From IMG/VR virus record IMGVR_UViG_3300036884_000037, positions 1 through 32,553 of that record: a stretch of DNA of 32,553 bases. One strand, given 5' to 3'. This stretch comes from a virus. The translations under genes were made by a program, and so were the position numbers. The notes under the pieces were generated by a model that saw only the letters and a list, made by a program, of their open reading frames with translations, did no database searches and was not told where the DNA came from. Positions 565 to 17,392 of this stretch are shown here, piece after piece (within the stretch, counting starts at the first letter, position 1; each line of letters starts with the position of its first letter).

Positions 565-3410
565 ACTATTTTCCTTTCTTCGCCGTCTTCTTTCTTTTCG
601 GCGTTGTAAATTAAGGACATAGCAACGTGTCCGAGTTCCGGCACTGTAAGATCAAATTCCAAACAGGGCTGGGCAATTGTTGGTAAGTATTCGACCCCGC
701 CACCCAGGGCTTTACGTGCATTGGCTTTAAGTAATACCGGACGCGGTTTAATATTACTCAACACTTCAGTAAATTGTTTCATAGATATATATGATTTTCT
801 GAAATGGTCTCGGAGTACGTCCCGAGAAATAAAGAGTCGCTTGCTATCAGTTTCCAGCCGCCCAATAATTGCGCCTTTGATCTCACGATAGACAAATACA
901 TAAGGTCTGCCGGAAGGATCTTTCCGTTTATCACATACCAGAATGTTTCCTGCATAATGTTCCACGAATGCAGCCAGAGCATCTATAGGAGCCACAACCT
1001 GTTCACATTTAGAACCGCGCATATCATGTACAGCGTCAACGAACCAGTCCATTATAGGAGCAATCTCAAAACGAATCAGCCCAAGTTTCTTGGCAATCAA
1101 TCCGCCATAGATAGCTACGGCTCCAAGCGCCGCCCAGAATCTTTCCTCAGAGGCGTTACCTAGTTTTTGCTCCAGTAGATCCATGATCTGATCCAGTTTG
1201 CTCTGATGTTCTTCAACATGAGCAACGAGGTACTGGATGTATTCAACACCAGCATGACCGCAATTTAGCATAACCGCGCGGTACATTTGTTTTGCAATGG
1301 CAGCATCCATTTCCTCAGGGAAAATCTCAAATACACGATTGATTTCCGCAGAAGCATCAGCTTTGGCTTGCCCCAGGCGCTCAACAAGTGAATGGTTTGA
1401 CGATGTAGTTATGACCGTGTTCCATGCATTGATATTGGATTTCTCTACCGCCTTCTGAGTTAGTCGGGCTTTATCCCGTCCCTGTGTAACCTTATAAACA
1501 AAGTCGCTTAGTGCCAGGGGTTCGATATTACTTGTCTCGTCAATGTACATTGGCAATGAGCCAAAGATCCCGAGACGTGAGATCAATGCATTCGGGGTAT
1601 CATCCTTACGACAAGACAGCTTCTCTGGCCGACCATATAGGGACAGAATAAAAGTACCCATTAAGGTTTTCCCAATTCCCGACTTCCCCACAATGGAAAG
1701 AACCGCTCCAGCATAACCAGTAAATTTCATCAGGGGCGCACCGAAGCCACCGGCGAGAAGGGAGAATGCGTGGACAATCATTTCGTCCTGATTCAGAAAC
1801 TCTGTTGCTTGTACCCATGATTCTTTATCTCCTATGCATTTAAACCCCTTAACTAATTCAGGAATATTCTTTGCAAGACCGGCTCCATGTACTTCTTCAC
1901 CTGGGCCATATATATGTTCGCCGAGGATGAACTGTAGGTCATCAACTCGGTCTTCGTCCTCATTACGCCATCCCATTTGACAGAATAGTTTTGACATCTT
2001 CTGCTGGGCTCTTAACCGCATTACATAATTTTCCACATAGGCCCCCATTAGAACTTGTTCCCTTTTCCCTATAACTTGAACATGATGATCGTGAAGTTCG
2101 ATCATGAATGCTTTGGTATCTTTTGGTAAAGATGATCTAATAACGACATCCTTTTCCCCTTCATGTGGCATCATATGTCTAATCGTTATAGCCTCATAAC
2201 CCAGACTGTCGTCATAGGCCACGCGTTCAACCCATAGATCCCAAGGATAAATCATTGTAGAGCCGTCATCATCCTCATAGAAGATCCCATCTTTCGTGCG
2301 TTTAAAGCCTTTGGGGGTCCATTTGCCCTCTTCTGACATCATCTTCCCATACCCAAGAGCAATAGGGGAATGCAGCTTCTTACTATGAGAACAGCCAATG
2401 CAGCCTTGTGGATTAACAGTGCCAAACATATGACACGTAGTAGGAGCTGTCTGAATCTGCTGGTCTTTTAGCTCAGTTGCCTCATATGAATATTCTGGAT
2501 GACCACTAGACCAGAGATGTTGTATCTGGGGATACTCCTCTGTGTAATGCAACAAGCAAAGGGCTGCATACCAGAATGGTTCAGGTACGTTCCCTTTTGT
2601 ATCCCTGATGATCCTCATTTGGTTACATCGTTCTGCAATCTCTAACGCGCTACTTGGTGGTCGGTCAGTGATCCCACTTAGGAATTCGTCGTACTCTGTT
2701 TGTTTCTTTGGCGGTTTAAGCACCGTGGTTTCTATCTTGCGTGCTTTTGCCGCAGTCCCGAGCAAATGAGTAAATGTAACAAATGATATGGGGTCGGCAT
2801 CTTTGATAATGGATACCGGTTTATCAGTTCCGTTTTTCCTGTTGGTTGAACCAGGAGGGCGTAAAATACTGGCTGAATCAGAAGTCCTTGCTGGGTCTGC
2901 CTCAAATTCATAGGCAGTAAGCGTTGATTTTAATAACTGAGCTGTACCCTTCCATTGAGCTTCAGAAAGGTCTTCCTCCATAAACCAATATGCATATAGC
3001 CCGTTGCCAGATCTAACAACACAGGGGAATGGTAGACCTGTTGCGCGTACCATTTCGGATATAGCATTACACCCTGCGGCCTGATTGGCATATGGTTTCT
3101 CAGGACCACAATCTATATCAAGCCAGAAAGCTTTTATTGCGTGTACATTTTCCTGCGATCTGCGTTTCTTGCGCTGGTTCTTCGGGGCATCAGCAGGCAG
3201 GGCATTGTTATATGCCATAGCGGCATCAATTTTTTCAGTAGAATAAGTAGCCTGAGCTAAATAAACTGTATGCCCCTGAGCGTCAAGGGCTATTGCATTT
3301 GAAATTGCGTCATCTAGTGTCTCGAAAAATCTATGCCGAATCCCTTTCGGCCCAACATTGGCCACGCATATTAGACCTTGCGAGGGAAATAACTTTTCAA
3401 AAAAATTCAT
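561..3410 (-). CDS. Primase-polymerase / superfamily 3-like helicase fusion
   Basis: A 949-residue replication protein. The N-terminal part resembles archaeo-eukaryotic (RepB/prim-pol type) primases: WLDID at 96-100 gives the metal-binding DxD, SGNGLYAYW at 134-142 is the second motif, and ILRPPGSTNRK at 182-192 the third. A Cys cluster (C326, C338, C341, with His nearby) follows and could bind zinc. The C-terminal half is a DUF927-like ATPase with Walker A GKSGIGKT at 575-582 and Walker B-like LPMYIDE at 619-625. It probably primes and unwinds at the phage origin. The start has GGAG six bases upstream and a TTGACA promoter at 3443-3470. An oddity is that the second primase motif has Tyr139 where related proteins usually have His. 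Confidence 0.85.
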   Translation of the reverse strand: MNFFEKLFPSQGLICVANVGPKGIRHRFFETLDDAISNAIALDAQGHTVYLAQATYSTEKIDAAMAYNNALPADAPKNQRKKRRSQENVHAIKAFWLDIDCGPEKPYANQAAGCNAISEMVRATGLPFPCVVRSGNGLYAYWFMEEDLSEAQWKGTAQLLKSTLTAYEFEADPARTSDSASILRPPGSTNRKNGTDKPVSIIKDADPISFVTFTHLLGTAAKARKIETTVLKPPKKQTEYDEFLSGITDRPPSSALEIAERCNQMRIIRDTKGNVPEPFWYAALCLLHYTEEYPQIQHLWSSGHPEYSYEATELKDQQIQTAPTTCHMFGTVNPQGCIGCSHSKKLHSPIALGYGKMMSEEGKWTPKGFKRTKDGIFYEDDDGSTMIYPWDLWVERVAYDDSLGYEAITIRHMMPHEGEKDVVIRSSLPKDTKAFMIELHDHHVQVIGKREQVLMGAYVENYVMRLRAQQKMSKLFCQMGWRNEDEDRVDDLQFILGEHIYGPGEEVHGAGLAKNIPELVKGFKCIGDKESWVQATEFLNQDEMIVHAFSLLAGGFGAPLMKFTGYAGAVLSIVGKSGIGKTLMGTFILSLYGRPEKLSCRKDDTPNALISRLGIFGSLPMYIDETSNIEPLALSDFVYKVTQGRDKARLTQKAVEKSNINAWNTVITTSSNHSLVERLGQAKADASAEINRVFEIFPEEMDAAIAKQMYRAVMLNCGHAGVEYIQYLVAHVEEHQSKLDQIMDLLEQKLGNASEERFWAALGAVAIYGGLIAKKLGLIRFEIAPIMDWFVDAVHDMRGSKCEQVVAPIDALAAFVEHYAGNILVCDKRKDPSGRPYVFVYREIKGAIIGRLETDSKRLFISRDVLRDHFRKSYISMKQFTEVLSNIKPRPVLLKANARKALGGGVEYLPTIAQPCLEFDLTVPELGHVAMSLIYNAEKKEDGEERKIV

Positions 3411-3442
3411 ATAGACTCCAATGTTTTCATGGTGAGTCTTAT

Positions 3443-3470
3443 CCTATACCCTATTTCAAATCACTGTCAA
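3443..3470 (-). promoter_or_regulatory. Sigma70-type promoter for the primase-helicase gene
   Basis: On the minus strand TTGACA (3470-3465) is followed after 16 bases by TATAGG (3448-3443). It lies immediately after the stop of the HTH gene and about 30 bases upstream of the primase ATG. The sequence around the -10 (AATAGGGTATAGG) resembles the -10 regions of two other leftward promoters in this window. Confidence 0.6.
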
Positions 3471-3473
3471 CTA

Positions 3474-3740
3474 TTATATTATTTTCGCTATATCGAAGAT
3501 AGCCTTGATCCTATCTTCAGGAGTCAGTCCTTTGGGTAGCGGGAGTAATCCCTGTTTAATTCCGGTAATTAATTTTTTGATCTGATGCATTGCAAACTCA
3601 GCCTGTATCTGAACACGAGGTTCCCGTCCTTGTCTCCAATGATGTAATGTATTCCGTGTCACCCGCATAAGCTGGGCGGCTTCTTCATAGGTAATCCCTG
3701 AAGCTTTTATTGTTTGCTCTATAACTTTAAGATCGAGCAT
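3474..3740 (-). CDS. Small helix-turn-helix DNA-binding protein
   Basis: An 88-residue protein with a helix-turn-helix in ITYEEAAQLMRVTRNTLHHW (about residues 16-35), followed by a basic and helical tail. The start is placed at MLDLKV because GGAGG lies seven bases upstream (GGAGGATACAATG). A longer reading from an upstream ATG has no such site. HTH proteins of this size are typical phage transcription regulators. It sits between the ssDNA-binding protein gene and the promoter of the primase gene, so it may regulate that promoter, which is inference. It ends in TAA just before the -35 box. Confidence 0.75.
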   Translation of the reverse strand: MLDLKVIEQTIKASGITYEEAAQLMRVTRNTLHHWRQGREPRVQIQAEFAMHQIKKLITGIKQGLLPLPKGLTPEDRIKAIFDIAKII

Positions 3741-3796
3741 TGTATCCTCCAAAAACTCCGCTACGGGGATTCCCATAGCGGAGCCATTCTAGTTAC

Positions 3797-4825
3797 TTAC
3801 AGTCCCAGTTTTGCAGATAGATCGGCATCTGAGAATCCGCCAAGTTGTCCCGCGGGAGCTTGATTTCCAGCAAAACCACCAAAGGCGACTGTTGCGTCAG
3901 GAGCGGTTTCTACATGGGCCTCTTCTGCTTTGGCAGCAGGTTTGATCTCACGTACTTTACGATTGTTCTTTGGCGGTGCCTGGGCATTCGGGGTACTAAT
4001 GTCTGCACCGAAAGATCCAAACCCAGGAGCGGCATTTTCAGGAACCTGTTCCTGGACTGGAGCCTGCTGGACTGGAGCCTGCTGGACTGGAGCCGGAAGC
4101 GCAGCAGCGTTTGGAACTTTAATAATGTCCCGTACTTCTACGCTGTCGATCAGTTCATATACATATGACAGAACTGTTTCATCCGCGAGTCCACCGAACG
4201 TGAAGGTAAGTTTCGGATAAGAAACTTTGATGTCGAAGCTGACCATGGTAATTGCTTCAGCCATATGGATACCACGGCTACGCAAACTTGCAACGTATTT
4301 GGCAAAGTTACCGAGGGATGCAGGCGGAATCTTGAACTTAAACGCACCCTGGTCTGATCCTGGGGTTACAGCGGTTATCTTGATATCACGGCATGCTTTA
4401 CCATCAGACGGCTCACCGGTAGCGGTTTTACCTGTACCAAACTGGTTCTTGGCACACCCAGCACATGATGCAGCACATTTATACTCGACCGAAGGATCAG
4501 GTACAATGCCATCCCGCGAGAAACAATCAGGTTTTGTCGGCTCATCGCCTGGGGTATATGCACCGTTGTAAAATACCTTGTCAAACGGACCCTTAGCTCG
4601 AAGGATAATGAGGCCAATTGACGTGCGGTCAATAGCATGATCCTCGCCATCTTTTGACACGATAAACCGCGTACCACTCAGTTTAATCTCAGGAGGAGCA
4701 CCGGTAAAAAGATTTGCAAGAGCATCTTCTTCCATGGTATCCAAGATTGAGCCACACTGCGATCTCAGTGCAAGTACGTGAGCAGGAAGCGTTGCGGGTA
4801 AGTTGTTGAATTGGTCGTCAGACAT
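3797..4825 (-). CDS. Putative ssDNA-binding protein with Cys cluster and flexible tail
   Basis: A 342-residue protein with a folded N-terminal part of about 235 residues that carries a four-Cys motif (CAASCAGC near 116-123 and a further Cys in KACRD) likely to bind zinc. It is followed by a low-complexity Ala/Pro/Gln-rich tail with tandem PVQQA units and a short Gly/Phe/acidic end (GGFSDADLSAKLGL). This architecture of core plus disordered tail with a hydrophobic-acidic tip resembles phage ssDNA-binding proteins, and the position beside primase and helicase genes fits. The assignment rests on layout and context, not on a recognised fold. An AAAGGAG-type site lies before the ATG. Confidence 0.5.
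   Translation of the reverse strand: MSDDQFNNLPATLPAHVLALRSQCGSILDTMEEDALANLFTGAPPEIKLSGTRFIVSKDGEDHAIDRTSIGLIILRAKGPFDKVFYNGAYTPGDEPTKPDCFSRDGIVPDPSVEYKCAASCAGCAKNQFGTGKTATGEPSDGKACRDIKITAVTPGSDQGAFKFKIPPASLGNFAKYVASLRSRGIHMAEAITMVSFDIKVSYPKLTFTFGGLADETVLSYVYELIDSVEVRDIIKVPNAAALPAPVQQAPVQQAPVQEQVPENAAPGFGSFGADISTPNAQAPPKNNRKVREIKPAAKAEEAHVETAPDATVAFGGFAGNQAPAGQLGGFSDADLSAKLGL
4052..4094 (-). repeat. 15-bp tandem repeat coding the PVQQA tail units
   Basis: Two full copies of CTGGACTGGAGCCTG (4052-4066 and 4067-4081) and a partial third (4082-4094) lie head to tail inside the tail of the putative ssDNA-binding protein. Being 15 bp, copy-number change keeps the reading frame. Confidence 0.85.
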
Positions 4826-4854
4826 AGTTTATTTCTCCTTTGTTTTTTATTCGG

Positions 4855-5076
4855 CTATTTGCCGATGTTGTGTTTCATATCCTGATATACCCTGCGATTT
4901 CCGCAAGCGATAGCAGTTGGATTCTTAAAGAATTGTTTGGCCCCCAGCAAAACATGGGACAACGAAACATGGGTCAGTGTCATCATCTGGGGTCCATGCC
5001 CTTCTTGATATTCAGTCTTACGTGGTTCATCACCATACACCATTCGCCTCAGTTCCTTCGCTTTCTTTTCGTTCAT
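4855..5076 (-). CDS. Small basic phage protein of unknown function
   Basis: A 73-residue protein beginning MNEKKAKELRRMVYGD and ending with CGNRRVYQDMKHNIGK. Similar Lys/Arg-rich openings and RRVYQ-like endings occur in uncharacterised phage proteins. The start is chosen at 5076 because AAGGAG lies eight bases upstream. An in-frame extension to 5118 would overlap the Cys-rich mini-gene upstream and lacks a ribosome site. It could bind nucleic acid, judging only by charge. Confidence 0.75.
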   Translation of the reverse strand: MNEKKAKELRRMVYGDEPRKTEYQEGHGPQMMTLTHVSLSHVLLGAKQFFKNPTAIACGNRRVYQDMKHNIGK

Positions 5077-11510: not shown

Positions 11511-11735
11511 TCAACCTCCGTACTGTTTGGATTGCCAGTTAATTGCTGTCATTCGGGATTCAAAGTGCGCTATCTCCCGCGCACGTAGCTTTTCAATAGC
11601 GCCCTGTTTATTTTCTGAAAGATGCGCATCTCCATACCGCATATATACCTGGGGTAATACCTCATTTATTACAAGCTCATGATCGTTATTAAGCAGGGCT
11701 CCATACATAACTGGTTTGCGGCTGTAATCTATCAC
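11511..11735 (-). CDS. Hypothetical phage protein
   Basis: A 74-residue protein that begins at GTG overlapping the TGA of the polymerase palm gene (GTGA), which implies translational coupling. It contains helical NKQGAIEKLRAREIAHFESRM and ends NWQSKQYGG. Codons of that end supply the ribosome site of the next gene. No domain was recognised. Confidence 0.65.
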   Translation of the reverse strand: MIDYSRKPVMYGALLNNDHELVINEVLPQVYMRYGDAHLSENKQGAIEKLRAREIAHFESRMTAINWQSKQYGG

Positions 11736-12724
11736 TTGATGTACCTCCTATCCCAGCCGCCCTCTGAGGCAAGAGGTAAATCTGGAGCCCATGAAGGCGG
11801 TGTGGCCATTATAATACCCATTTCCTTGTATACATCTTCAGCCTGATTTTCAGGACACACAGATAAGATCTCGTCATGCACTTGATGCACACAACGAATT
11901 CCTTCTTGCTGCATCCTGAGCATGTCGTCGGTGATAACGATTCGTGCCAGCGCCTGTGTGATATTCTCATCAACTTTTCCGCCGTACAACTTTTCTCTTT
12001 GCCCTTTCTTTCTATCCCGTAGGATACTGAACTCATTGTATTTTCCTTCTTTCTTCGTGCGCAGCTCAACATAGCGCATAATCATCCCATTTGGTAGACG
12101 TAGTCCCTCAGCACAGGTTTCAATAATTCCCCCGTTCCCGAACTGCCACCCATATTGCCCGCATACAATTGCCTCTAACGATTCTTGACAAGTCTTCCAG
12201 AACTGGATCAGCATCGGGTTATTATCCCGAAAGGTTTTGATTATTCTCTCTGCATTCGCGCAGTGCGTGGCATGGGTAACAAAATCAATACTCGGAGGCA
12301 AGGATTCTTCAACATATTTTCTATGAATCCCTAAGAATCGTTCTGGATATACCCCAAGAGACTGAGCTACATCTTCCCCGAGCAACCGACCCTTCTCACC
12401 TAGCATCCCTACCCTGAGCATACCTTGAAACTTTTTCCATCCGAGTCCATAACCGCAACCGAGGGTCACAGTCTTTCCTAGAAATCTTTCCTTTGGATGT
12501 TCCTTCTTTTTAATTGGCTTACTGAATATCGTTGTGGCCATTTTACAATAAGCATCTTCGCCTCGCCGATAGGTATCGACCATGCTCATCTGCTCTGCTA
12601 ACCAGAAATTTATTCTGGCTTCGATTTGCGACAAGTCACGTACCACAATAACATGTCCTGGAGGGGCCATTATAGCACGTCTAAGTGCTGAAATTCCTGT
12701 GCCGTCGCAGCGATCACACTTCAT
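11732..12724 (-). CDS. Family A DNA polymerase, palm and fingers part (split gene)
   Basis: A 330-residue C-terminal half of a family A DNA polymerase. It starts MKCDRCDGTGISALRRAIM, so a CxxC pair stands directly before the palm. Motif A is VRDLSQIEARI (about 28-38), motif B (O-helix) is RFLGKTVTLGCGYG (about 81-94), and motif C is HQVHDEIL (about 282-289), so all catalytic residues are present. The exonuclease and thumb regions are missing and are encoded 460 bases upstream as a separate gene. The start ATG has only a weak AGG site and lies inside the end of the upstream small gene. The full enzyme probably forms from the two products. Confidence 0.9.
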   Translation of the reverse strand: MKCDRCDGTGISALRRAIMAPPGHVIVVRDLSQIEARINFWLAEQMSMVDTYRRGEDAYCKMATTIFSKPIKKKEHPKERFLGKTVTLGCGYGLGWKKFQGMLRVGMLGEKGRLLGEDVAQSLGVYPERFLGIHRKYVEESLPPSIDFVTHATHCANAERIIKTFRDNNPMLIQFWKTCQESLEAIVCGQYGWQFGNGGIIETCAEGLRLPNGMIMRYVELRTKKEGKYNEFSILRDRKKGQREKLYGGKVDENITQALARIVITDDMLRMQQEGIRCVHQVHDEILSVCPENQAEDVYKEMGIIMATPPSWAPDLPLASEGGWDRRYIK

Positions 12725-12953
12725 TGAAAAACCTGAGAGTATAAAATTTTTTCGTTTTTTTCTTTATTTCCCATGACTCACGCAATTGTGCCGCCCGCCT
12801 TTGTGCATCAATTAAATAACTAAAATATTGAATAAAATCAAATTCCTTATCAGTAATCCAAAAGGGGGAATATTTATATCTGTATTGAACAAAATAGAGT
12901 GTGTCCTGGTCCGACTCCCATATTCTTATTTCCGTACCTATTCTATATTTCAT
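12714..12953 (-). CDS. Hypothetical protein lodged between polymerase halves
   Basis: A 79-residue protein rich in aromatic residues (LYFVQYRYKYSPFWITDKEFDFIQYFSYLIDAQ split across the middle) with a basic C-terminal helix (LRESWEIKKKTKKF). GGGGGGAAAAA before the ATG is a good ribosome site and the start overlaps the upstream stop as ATGA. Its end overlaps the start of the polymerase palm gene. It looks like an ordinary small phage gene rather than part of an intron or intein. Confidence 0.65.
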   Translation of the reverse strand: MKYRIGTEIRIWESDQDTLYFVQYRYKYSPFWITDKEFDFIQYFSYLIDAQRRAAQLRESWEIKKKTKKFYTLRFFNEV

Positions 12954-13198
12954 TTTTTCCCCCCAAATACTCTACGCCATAAAGACGGTTGGTATAAACT
13001 ACGCTCGGGTCCACAATCTCCGCGCTCACGCATATAACGCGCAGATGGGCGCAGCGCTCCATGTTTACCGAGTGATATTAATGCTTCATGTCCGGTATAT
13101 GGATCAGTCTGATACTCCCATGGCCCATCTTGCACTTTGCATACAGGATAATCCATACCTACATGAATAAAATGCTTACATCCGCTACACGTTTTCAT
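12950..13198 (-). CDS. Cys-rich phage protein lodged between polymerase halves
   Basis: An 82-residue protein beginning MKTCSGCKHF and continuing YPVCK, DGPWEYQTDPYTGHEAL and RGDCGPERSLYQPS. The CxxCKHF opening, the later P-x-C and the closing DCGPE-like segment match a common family of small phage zinc proteins without known role. The start at 13198 is favoured by AGAGG five bases before it. A GTG at 13231 is possible but has no site. The gene begins 13 bases inside the polymerase exonuclease gene. Confidence 0.7.
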   Translation of the reverse strand: MKTCSGCKHFIHVGMDYPVCKVQDGPWEYQTDPYTGHEALISLGKHGALRPSARYMRERGDCGPERSLYQPSLWRRVFGGKK

Positions 13199-14276
13199 CA
13201 GGAACCTCTTTTTCGCCATTACATCGGCCACACAATTTTGTCAAATTTTGCGCATTTGACTTATCGCCACCACCAAGTCTTCCTGTGTGTGCGGCATATA
13301 CTTTCAGGTAAATAGGAAATGTTCCACGCCCTGCTATCCCTATAAATCGTTCTGATCGAGTTTGTTTGATTGTGCTTTTGATTCCGAACCGAGCTTCCAT
13401 GAGCGCGGCAATCATAGGATCTTCACTCGCTGCCAATTCCTTCGCAGCCTCGTCGTTCTTAGCCAGAGCATAGGCCCATGACTTCATTCCTTCCGGTAAT
13501 AGTCCTGACGGTTCTTCCCCAGGATCTTCGTCTGGGTGCGCCTTGCGCCAGGAGGGACTGATCTTCTTAGGTGGATCAACCCCGTACTCCAGTAGTAACT
13601 TAGCAAATTGAGGGTTAGACGCCAACACCGAACGGTCAGCGGATATCTTTTCCATTAATAACCGCTTATCTTCGATCTCATCGTCTCTCATCTGGATCAG
13701 TAGATCCCGATCCAACACCGTCACCGGCTCGGTGAACATTCGAGTAACAAGATCAATCACCCGTAATTCTGAAAGAGGGTATCCCACTTTCATGATGCCG
13801 AAGGCTTCTCTCGTCCTCTCTGTGTCGTTCATACAGTAAAACCCATATCGTTCTAGCTCTTGGTATGTGAAGTCTCTTAAATGCTTTCCTCGTGCGTTAT
13901 CGACCTCTTTCCCCTTTGCCCTTATTCCCAGTATATCGCACATATTAGCAAGAGACGCACGTTCTGCTGGATATAGCGCCCTGAACATTGGTAGGGTATC
14001 CAGTATGAACGCCGGACGATAACCGTATCTCCAATTGAGTATGGCCATATCAAAATGCGCATGATGTGATAGGACCATACATTGATCCCAGGGTATCTTA
14101 GCGAGAACTGCTGGAACTTGTGGACCTGGAACCCAGAACGCTGGATTCTCATCCATTTGAAAACTACACATGATAGTTTCAAATCTCGGATCTCGGATAT
14201 ATTCCTCGTTTGTCATACTTGAAAGAGTATATCCAGTTCCGTAGAAAGTTTCAAAGTCAAGGGTTAAGAAATGCAT
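13185..14276 (-). CDS. Family A DNA polymerase, 3'-5' exonuclease and thumb part (split gene)
   Basis: A 363-residue N-terminal half of a family A DNA polymerase. LDFETFYGTG (about 6-15) is Exo I, HHAHFDMAIL is Exo II, and YCMNDTERTREAF is Exo III, so the proofreading site is intact. It continues through a thumb-like region to AAHTGRLGGGDKSNAQNL, which in single-chain enzymes leads directly to the palm, and then ends after CGRCNGEKEVPDENV with TAG. The chain therefore breaks just after a CxxC pair, and the missing palm and fingers are encoded downstream. It follows the preceding gene with no gap. Confidence 0.9.
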   Translation of the reverse strand: MHFLTLDFETFYGTGYTLSSMTNEEYIRDPRFETIMCSFQMDENPAFWVPGPQVPAVLAKIPWDQCMVLSHHAHFDMAILNWRYGYRPAFILDTLPMFRALYPAERASLANMCDILGIRAKGKEVDNARGKHLRDFTYQELERYGFYCMNDTERTREAFGIMKVGYPLSELRVIDLVTRMFTEPVTVLDRDLLIQMRDDEIEDKRLLMEKISADRSVLASNPQFAKLLLEYGVDPPKKISPSWRKAHPDEDPGEEPSGLLPEGMKSWAYALAKNDEAAKELAASEDPMIAALMEARFGIKSTIKQTRSERFIGIAGRGTFPIYLKVYAAHTGRLGGGDKSNAQNLTKLCGRCNGEKEVPDENV

Positions 14277-16063: not shown

Positions 16064-16278
16064 GACAGTAACCCATTTATACGAGTAGCTTCTCGAACTA
16101 TTTGTACCAACTTTAATGCTCGTTTGCCAGCATACTCCCGCTGAACGACTACCAAAAGAATCTGATCTGCTGCCCATTGCCGGATATTTTGTGGGTAGTG
16201 GTTAGCTACGAGGAAACATATCTGCCACGCGTAATCTTTACCATAAAGTTCGTCTGCATACTGTTCAATAACTGTCAT
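16051..16278 (-). CDS. Hypothetical phage protein
   Basis: A 75-residue protein, helical ([25 protein letters not shown], then [16 protein letters not shown]). GGGAGAGGGAAAATT, inside the end of the ClpX-like gene, is its ribosome site, and the two genes overlap by 14 bases, so it is co-translated with ClpX. It could act as a small partner of that ATPase, which is inference. Confidence 0.65.
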
Positions 16279-17392
16279 AATTTTCCCTCTCCCCCCATTC
16301 GATAATGTCTGTAACTGTACCCTGAATAAACTCAGCGGTGACTAGAACTCTAACAGCACTGGATCGTGGGATAGCAAACATAATGTCCAGCAAACTCTGT
16401 TCCAGTATGGCTCTCAGCCCTCGTGCGCCGGTACTCTGGTCATAGGCCTTTTTAGCTACTGCGAATAACGCAGCCTCAGTGAACTGCAACTCTACCCCTG
16501 AGAGGCGAAACAATTTCTGGTACTGTTTAACCAGGGCGTTCTTGGGTTCTTCCAAGATCTTAACCAGCGTTGCCTCTCCAAGTTCATGAAGCACCGAAAG
16601 AATTGGTAGCCGCCCGATAAACTCAGGGATCAGTCCAAAAGTTCGCAGATCTTCAGGAATAATATCTTCCAAATAAGCAATACTTTTCTTACTACTCTTG
16701 GTAGACCCTGAACCAAAACCGATCTGTTTCGTGCATAGCCGCTGCTGGATTACATTTTCTATTCCTGCAAAAGCCCCCCCGCATATGAACAGAATGTTCG
16801 TGGTGTTCATTTTAACCGTCTGTTTATCCTGGAACTTCAAGCCCCTGCTTAACGGGACCGATGAAACTGTACCCTCGATAATCTTCAGGAGTGCCTGCTG
16901 TACACCTTCGCCGGATACATCTCGGTGTGTCGAAGCATTACTGTGCTGGGCGATCTTATCAATCTCATCAATGTATACGATCCCCCGTTGTGCCTTCTCC
17001 ACATCGCCTTCAGCGGCGTTTAGTAGTTTGGTAAGGATGCTCTCTACATCCTCGCCAACATAACCCGCCTGGGTCAAGGTAGTTGCGTCGGCCATAGCGA
17101 ATGGAACTTTAAGAGTTCGAGCTAGTGTCTGGGCTAGAAGAGTTTTCCCCGATCCTGTTGGACCCAGGAGTAAAATATTGCTCTTCTGCATTTCCACATC
17201 GTCAATTATTTCATTAGTTTCAATCCGCTTATAGTGATTATAAACTGCAACCGATAGGATCTTTTTTGCTCTCTCCTGACCGACCACATATTTATCGAGT
17301 TCGCCCTTGATTTCTCGTGGTGACGGAATATCGAGCATCTCGATCTTACTCGCTACAAACTCGCTACTTGTCAGCCATTCCTGGAGTTCCAT
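16265..17392 (-). CDS. clpX: ClpX-type AAA+ unfoldase without zinc-binding domain
   Basis: A 375-residue ATPase that follows ClpX along its whole AAA+ core. Walker A is GPTGSGKT (77-84), pore loop 1 is GYVG (110-113), Walker B is IVYIDEID (138-145), [20 protein letters not shown] is nearly as in bacterial Clp[14 protein letters not shown] follows, the ClpP-docking loop is IGFGSG (224-229), and sensor 2 is GARGLR (322-327). Cellular ClpX is about 420 residues with an N-terminal Cys4 zinc domain, which is absent here. The RKH pore-entrance loop reads LKF (185-187). It should unfold proteins and could dock on host ClpP. Substrates probably differ from ssrA-tagged proteins. AAAGGATAGCTC precedes the ATG. 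Confidence 0.9.

Follow-up and report, generated by a model that had tools for sequence, protein, structure and literature searches.

Does a DNA polymerase that is encoded in two pieces, with one pair of cysteines at each of the facing ends, work as a two-chain enzyme, and could a zinc ion shared between the chains hold it together? The question is raised by a 32.6 kb viral fragment (IMGVR_UViG_3300036884_000037) from a virus of bacteria, which is referred to here over its full length of 32,553 nt as the window.

A polymerase encoded by two genes

The genes are arranged on the minus strand of the window in the order exonuclease half, 82-residue gene, 79-residue gene, polymerase half. The relevant features are the following.

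13185..14276, minus strand: exonuclease-thumb half of a family A DNA polymerase, 363 amino acids, assigned from phrog_403 and homology to single-chain polymerases
13221..13232, minus strand: first cysteine knuckle, C349-x2-C352, at the C-terminus of the exonuclease half (LCGRCNGEKEVPDENV, followed by the stop)
12950..13198, minus strand: first small gap gene, 82 amino acids from ATG 13198, with no database match
12714..12953, minus strand: second small gap gene, 79 amino acids
12707..12718, minus strand: second cysteine knuckle, C3-x2-C6, at the N-terminus of the polymerase half (MKCDRCDGTG)
11732..12724, minus strand: palm-fingers (polymerase) half, 330 amino acids, assigned from PF00476, phrog_17, motifs and fold

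The positions of both halves, their end sequences and the gap between them, as given by a first-pass annotation, are confirmed in the open reading frames. The exonuclease-thumb frame ends in NAQNLTKLCGRCNGEKEVPDENV before its stop codon and the polymerase frame begins with MKCDRCDGTGISALRRAIMAPPG (also written MKCDRCDGTGISALRRAI). The 460 nt between them (12725–13184) are filled by the two small genes, for which the same annotation had proposed individual ribosome sites and overlaps. This is borne out by overlaps of 14 nt between the exonuclease and 82-residue genes, 4 nt (ATGA) between the two small genes and 11 nt between the 79-residue and polymerase genes, and by the SD sequence aagagg in front of ATG 13198. 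The list of open reading frames gives the first gap gene as 93 residues from GTG 13231, but ATG 13198 is the most likely start because the SD sequence lies 6 nt before it, whereas the GTG has none. This SD sequence sits within the tail of the exonuclease gene, and the residues of that tail around GAG-GTT/GTG are under a further constraint because the stretch serves the following gene as its ribosome site. No homologues of the 82- and 79-residue genes were found in the phage records searched, and neither matches a known family. The first gap gene opens with a CxxC motif of its own (MKTCSGCKHF) and by eye resembles a good many of the small zinc proteins of phages.

The polymerase half matches PF00476 (E = 2.6e-17; 63.3 bits against a cut-off of 34.3) and phrog_17 (E = 2e-47). 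It carries motif A (DLSQIEAR), the O-helix residues R80-K84-L88-Y92 and motif C (VHDE), and Foldseek matches its AlphaFold model (pLDDT 91) to Taq, Klenow and Bst. The exonuclease half alone has no Pfam match; it matches phrog_403, a DNA polymerase exonuclease subunit (E = 2.5e-4), and aligns with the N-terminal part of single-chain phage polymerases. Its exonuclease motifs DFET, HFD and YC.ND are conserved across relatives, and it also carries the conserved palm segment R..GG.K.N.QNL. With polymerase motifs and 3′–5′ exonuclease motifs both present, the enzyme belongs to the family A DNA polymerases (phage Pol I type).

L88 of the polymerase half is the leucine at the Klenow 762 position and is invariant in our alignment, and genes for RecB-like PDDEXK and SNF2-like proteins neighbour the polymerase. 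A leucine at this position together with RecB-like and SNF2-like neighbours characterizes the Leu762 Group I replication module (Nasko et al. 2018, PMC6302109). By these two features, rather than by placement in a tree, the replication genes of the window appear to fit this module. The window thus resembles Leu762 Group I phage polymerases in its leucine and its neighbours; apart from the split ones, the relatives found here are single chains that lack a cysteine finger. Upstream of the replication genes, positions 16265–17392 encode a ClpX-like AAA+ protein (phrog_4339), apparently without the N-terminal zinc domain.

The same break in related phages

The same break is found in two further phage contigs. 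In L005 (IMGVR_UViG_3300035701_000033), the polymerase half of which is 84% identical to that of the window, the exonuclease half ends in NAQNLTKKCSYCDGNGEVL and the polymerase half starts with MKCDRCDGTG. A single 80-residue gene lies between them; it occupies the place of the 79-residue gene of the window, has the same 11 nt overlap onto the polymerase start and shows weak sequence similarity to it. L168 (IMGVR_UViG_3300044712_000496), which was picked up by a pattern scan for the second knuckle, is more distant, with 59% identity to the window in the polymerase half and 45% in the exonuclease half. Here, no gene intervenes and the halves overlap by 8 nt (ATGTCTGA); the exonuclease half ends in CTICDGSGKINV (longer form INLQNLSRSCTICDGSGKINV) and the polymerase half starts with MSECPCEKCAGTG (longer form MSECPCEKCAGTGVSPLRRAL). 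As the gap holds zero, one or two genes among the three split phages, the mechanism does not involve the inserted genes.

The gene order HTH, exonuclease half, polymerase half, PDDEXK nuclease is common to all three contigs, and an SNF2 helicase is seen further along in the window and L168. A quick maximum-likelihood tree groups the three in a single clade (SH-aLRT 100) that is nested among single-chain relatives, for which 160 homologous loci were found, and the split is therefore derived. Between the window and L005, pN/pS is 0.12/0.78 for the exonuclease half and 0.10/0.64 for the polymerase half, i.e. synonymous sites are near saturation while pN stays at about 0.1 for each half; no amino acid is changed over the first 30 polymerase codons, where pS is 0.68. 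Strong purifying selection acts on each half, and the catalytic motifs are preserved. Although the split is known from three phages only, the earlier suggestion that it is stable, and not a broken gene, is strongly supported by the recurrence of the break in three independent contigs, the low pN/pS of both halves, the intact motifs and the conserved gene order. An assembly error as the cause of the split is ruled out by the same break in the two other contigs.

Intein-like sequences occur elsewhere in these genes. The polymerase half of L168 (L183 5986–7368) contains an insert of about 129 residues in the O-helix, with the boundaries GKTVVLG/CLTGDN and LVHN/CGYGLG, and DNA polymerase genes of phages of Streptococcus, Ruminococcus and Gardnerella harbour similar sequence. 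A contig from a Bacillota MAG (L186 1284–2857) carries a relative's polymerase gene in which an intein-like sequence (GRWGG/CLTAETLVTV) directly precedes the QNL segment.

Cysteine pairs and a putative shared zinc unit

In the window, L005 and L168 alike, the sole two CxxC motifs in the whole enzyme flank the break. C349, C352 and Gly354 of the exonuclease half and C3, C6, Gly8, Thr9 and Gly10 of the polymerase half are invariant in the three phages, and the four cysteines are thus retained in L168 despite its low overall identity. With cysteines as frequent as in the single-chain relatives, both end segments would contain a CxxC by chance with a probability of about 6e-6, which is a rough estimate; given this value, the lack of any other CxxC in the enzyme and the recurrence in two other phages, the pairs are not a product of chance. 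Between QNL and LRxA, none of the 160 single-chain loci has a CxxC, and the 150 single-chain polymerases that were scored in full contain only five such motifs in all. In the sequences compared here, the cysteine pairs belong to the split lineage.

The first-pass annotation implied a single-chain ancestor carrying the joined finger. No such protein came to light: these cysteines are missing from every one of the 160 single-chain relatives, and none was returned by tblastn with the junction against phages and plasmids, by a search for two knuckle patterns in viral contigs or by profile scans of viral and GTDB contigs. Cysteine-free single-chain homologues, which had been listed beforehand as a refutation of the shared finger, do not refute it, because they show that only the split lineage has the finger. 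The junction loop lends itself naturally to insertions: other phages carry tens of extra residues there, and no CxxC pair is present in the longer junction inserts of the Rollin, Stiles, Mae-Yong, Bacteroides, Terrisporobacter and Fusobacterium phages. In Pseudomonas phage Rollin (L001 3001–5142) the insert, of about 40–50 residues, lies exactly at the QNL/LR junction.

When the two ends are joined in silico, the junctions resemble known zinc units. The joined sequences match Pfam DnaJ_CXXCXGXG with E values of 5.8e-6 (L005) and 6e-5 (window), and that of L168 matches Pfam Anti-TRAP with an E value of 2.7e-5, whereas the separate halves give 0.0037, 0.028 or nothing against these families. All of the joined scores stay below the Pfam gathering cut-offs, the best being 26.9 against 32.7 bits for DnaJ and 24.5 against 32 bits for Anti-TRAP. 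L005 and L168 contain the full CxxCxGxG motif twice; the first knuckle of the window is CxxCxG only and lacks the second glycine (CNGEKEV). In anti-TRAP, zinc is essential for oligomers and function (PMC2896485). Confinement of the cysteines to the split clade and the match of the joined knuckles to the DnaJ and anti-TRAP profiles together argue for an inter-chain zinc site. When each chain is modelled singly with AlphaFold, the first ten residues of the polymerase half, which contain its knuckle, have a pLDDT of 55, while the remainder is confident, and the last 40 residues of the exonuclease half are poorly defined (pLDDT about 38–58). These predicted chain ends are compatible with folding on contact between the halves, although low confidence can also stem from thin alignments.

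In family A enzymes such as Klenow and T7 polymerase, the thumb and the QNL palm strand grip the primer-template. As both lie on the exonuclease half, the enzyme would work most simply as a lasting complex. We therefore consider how such a complex might be built. The phage would be replicated by a two-subunit family A DNA polymerase, with one gene supplying the proofreading exonuclease, the thumb and the first palm strands and the other the catalytic palm and the fingers, the break falling behind the QNL motif, in a loop of the palm. Both chains would come from a single operon, with translation initiated at neighbouring start sites, and would dock by rebuilding the palm. Each would contribute one CxxC(xGxG) knuckle, and the four cysteines would bind one zinc in a unit of the DnaJ/anti-TRAP type that staples the chains together. 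That the enzyme consists of two chains is very probable. Docking of the pair and its polymerase activity are inferred, and sharing of the zinc between the chains is reasonably probable. Assembly across the palm may further depend on zinc, with each chain supplying half of the finger, and could then be switched by metal or redox state; we give this about an even chance.

Alternative readings and comparison with known split enzymes

A two-chain polymerase could also dock through the palm surface without sharing a zinc. The knuckles would then be leftovers, or each would bind a zinc of its own, for instance in a homodimer or in contact with a different replication protein. A precedent exists in L029 (IMGVR_UViG_3300014618_000008), which encodes a split family A polymerase (1831–4879) on a different branch of the tree. 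Its exonuclease half ends in LRRSLCVPTREVRL, small genes with ATGA overlaps follow and the polymerase half restarts before motif A; the split lies a few residues further on than the break in the window, and there is no CxxC. The comparison shows an independent split and indicates that zinc is not generally required for such halves to persist. The T4-like split gp43A/43B also work, and the passages of a review that describe them do not mention a zinc feature (PMC2988022). Survival of the four cysteines over a saturated synonymous distance and at 45–59% identity is harder to reconcile with leftover or separately used knuckles, as are the absence of any other CxxC from the enzyme and the far higher score of the joined pair relative to either half. 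We regard docking with no shared zinc as unlikely, but as an alternative of real weight. It is improbable that the halves form no lasting complex at all, with the exonuclease half serving independently as a nuclease for proofreading or repair while the polymerase half synthesizes DNA alone. The annotation of phrog_403 as a separate exonuclease subunit and the well folded model of the isolated polymerase half would suit such a division of roles, but the thumb and QNL strand reside on the exonuclease half, where that segment is poorly ordered in the single-chain model.

Rejoining of the halves in the cell, through an intron, a split intein or, in L168-like phages, a programmed +1 frameshift, is very improbable, even with intein-like inserts present elsewhere in the polymerase family. 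There is no Rfam intron match in the window or L005 and no open frame in any frame through the gap of the window; the zero, one or two genes in the gap each have a start and a ribosome site. The exonuclease tail past QNL (about 14–18 residues) and the polymerase head (about 12–15) are too short for a split intein. Rejoining was rejected on the missing intron match, these short ends and the lack of an open frame. Interrupted genes commonly decay, yet a decaying polymerase replaced by a host or second phage enzyme is scarcely credible here, as strong purifying selection acts on both halves, every motif is intact in three lineages and PHROG scans detected no second polymerase among the window proteins tested, in what is a partial annotation of a fragment record. 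The explanation that we favour, with somewhat better than even confidence, is a two-chain polymerase that would be docked through the palm and share one zinc.

Split phage polymerases, CXXCXGXG zinc units and inter-chain CxxC zinc sites such as the Rad50 hook are already known. The literature and databases searched contained no family A polymerase whose two chains each bear half a zinc finger, and the open-access literature searched yielded no split family A phage polymerase, which does not prove its absence. If the zinc staple is true, it would be a natural and evolutionarily stable route to rejoining a cut enzyme and a simple model of how a split gene survives, and it would suggest a zinc-controlled design of split polymerases in a family that is widely used in biotechnology. 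The versions with zero, one and two genes in the gap, together with the cysteine-free split of L029, offer natural comparisons for the reassembly of split phage enzymes.

The window polymerase is like gp43A/gp43B of the T4-like Aeromonas phages 25 and 44RR and nrdA of Aeh1, described in passages of the same review (PMC2988022), in that, in a single phage lineage, a replication enzyme with one-chain relatives is distributed over two cistrons with intervening sequence. The split PolB pieces gp43A/43B of phage 25 are reported there to co-purify and to be active. T4-like gp43 is a family B enzyme, the pieces of which are separated by a homing endonuclease or an untranslated spacer, while the window polymerase belongs to family A and has ordinary small genes, or in L168 nothing, between its pieces; no cysteine pair is mentioned at the gp43 break in those passages. 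The present locus shares with such genes in pieces the one-chain relatives and the derived split. A homing endonuclease or intron between the pieces was not found, the gap genes having no family match and L168 no insert; this feature is not universal in the class, judging from the account of 44RR in the review, where only an untranslated spacer separates the gp43 pieces.

In the DnaJ cysteine-rich domain and in anti-TRAP, two CxxCxGxG knuckles are used per zinc, and the joined phage knuckles match both families weakly but specifically. The phage knuckles differ in being located on separate polypeptides, each at the end of one half of an enzyme, and their match is below the cut-off. One CxxC per chain sharing one zinc, as predicted here, is likewise found in the Rad50 zinc hook, which serves as an analogy only: the hook joins two identical coiled-coil hairpins, whereas the phage unit would join two different halves of one enzyme.
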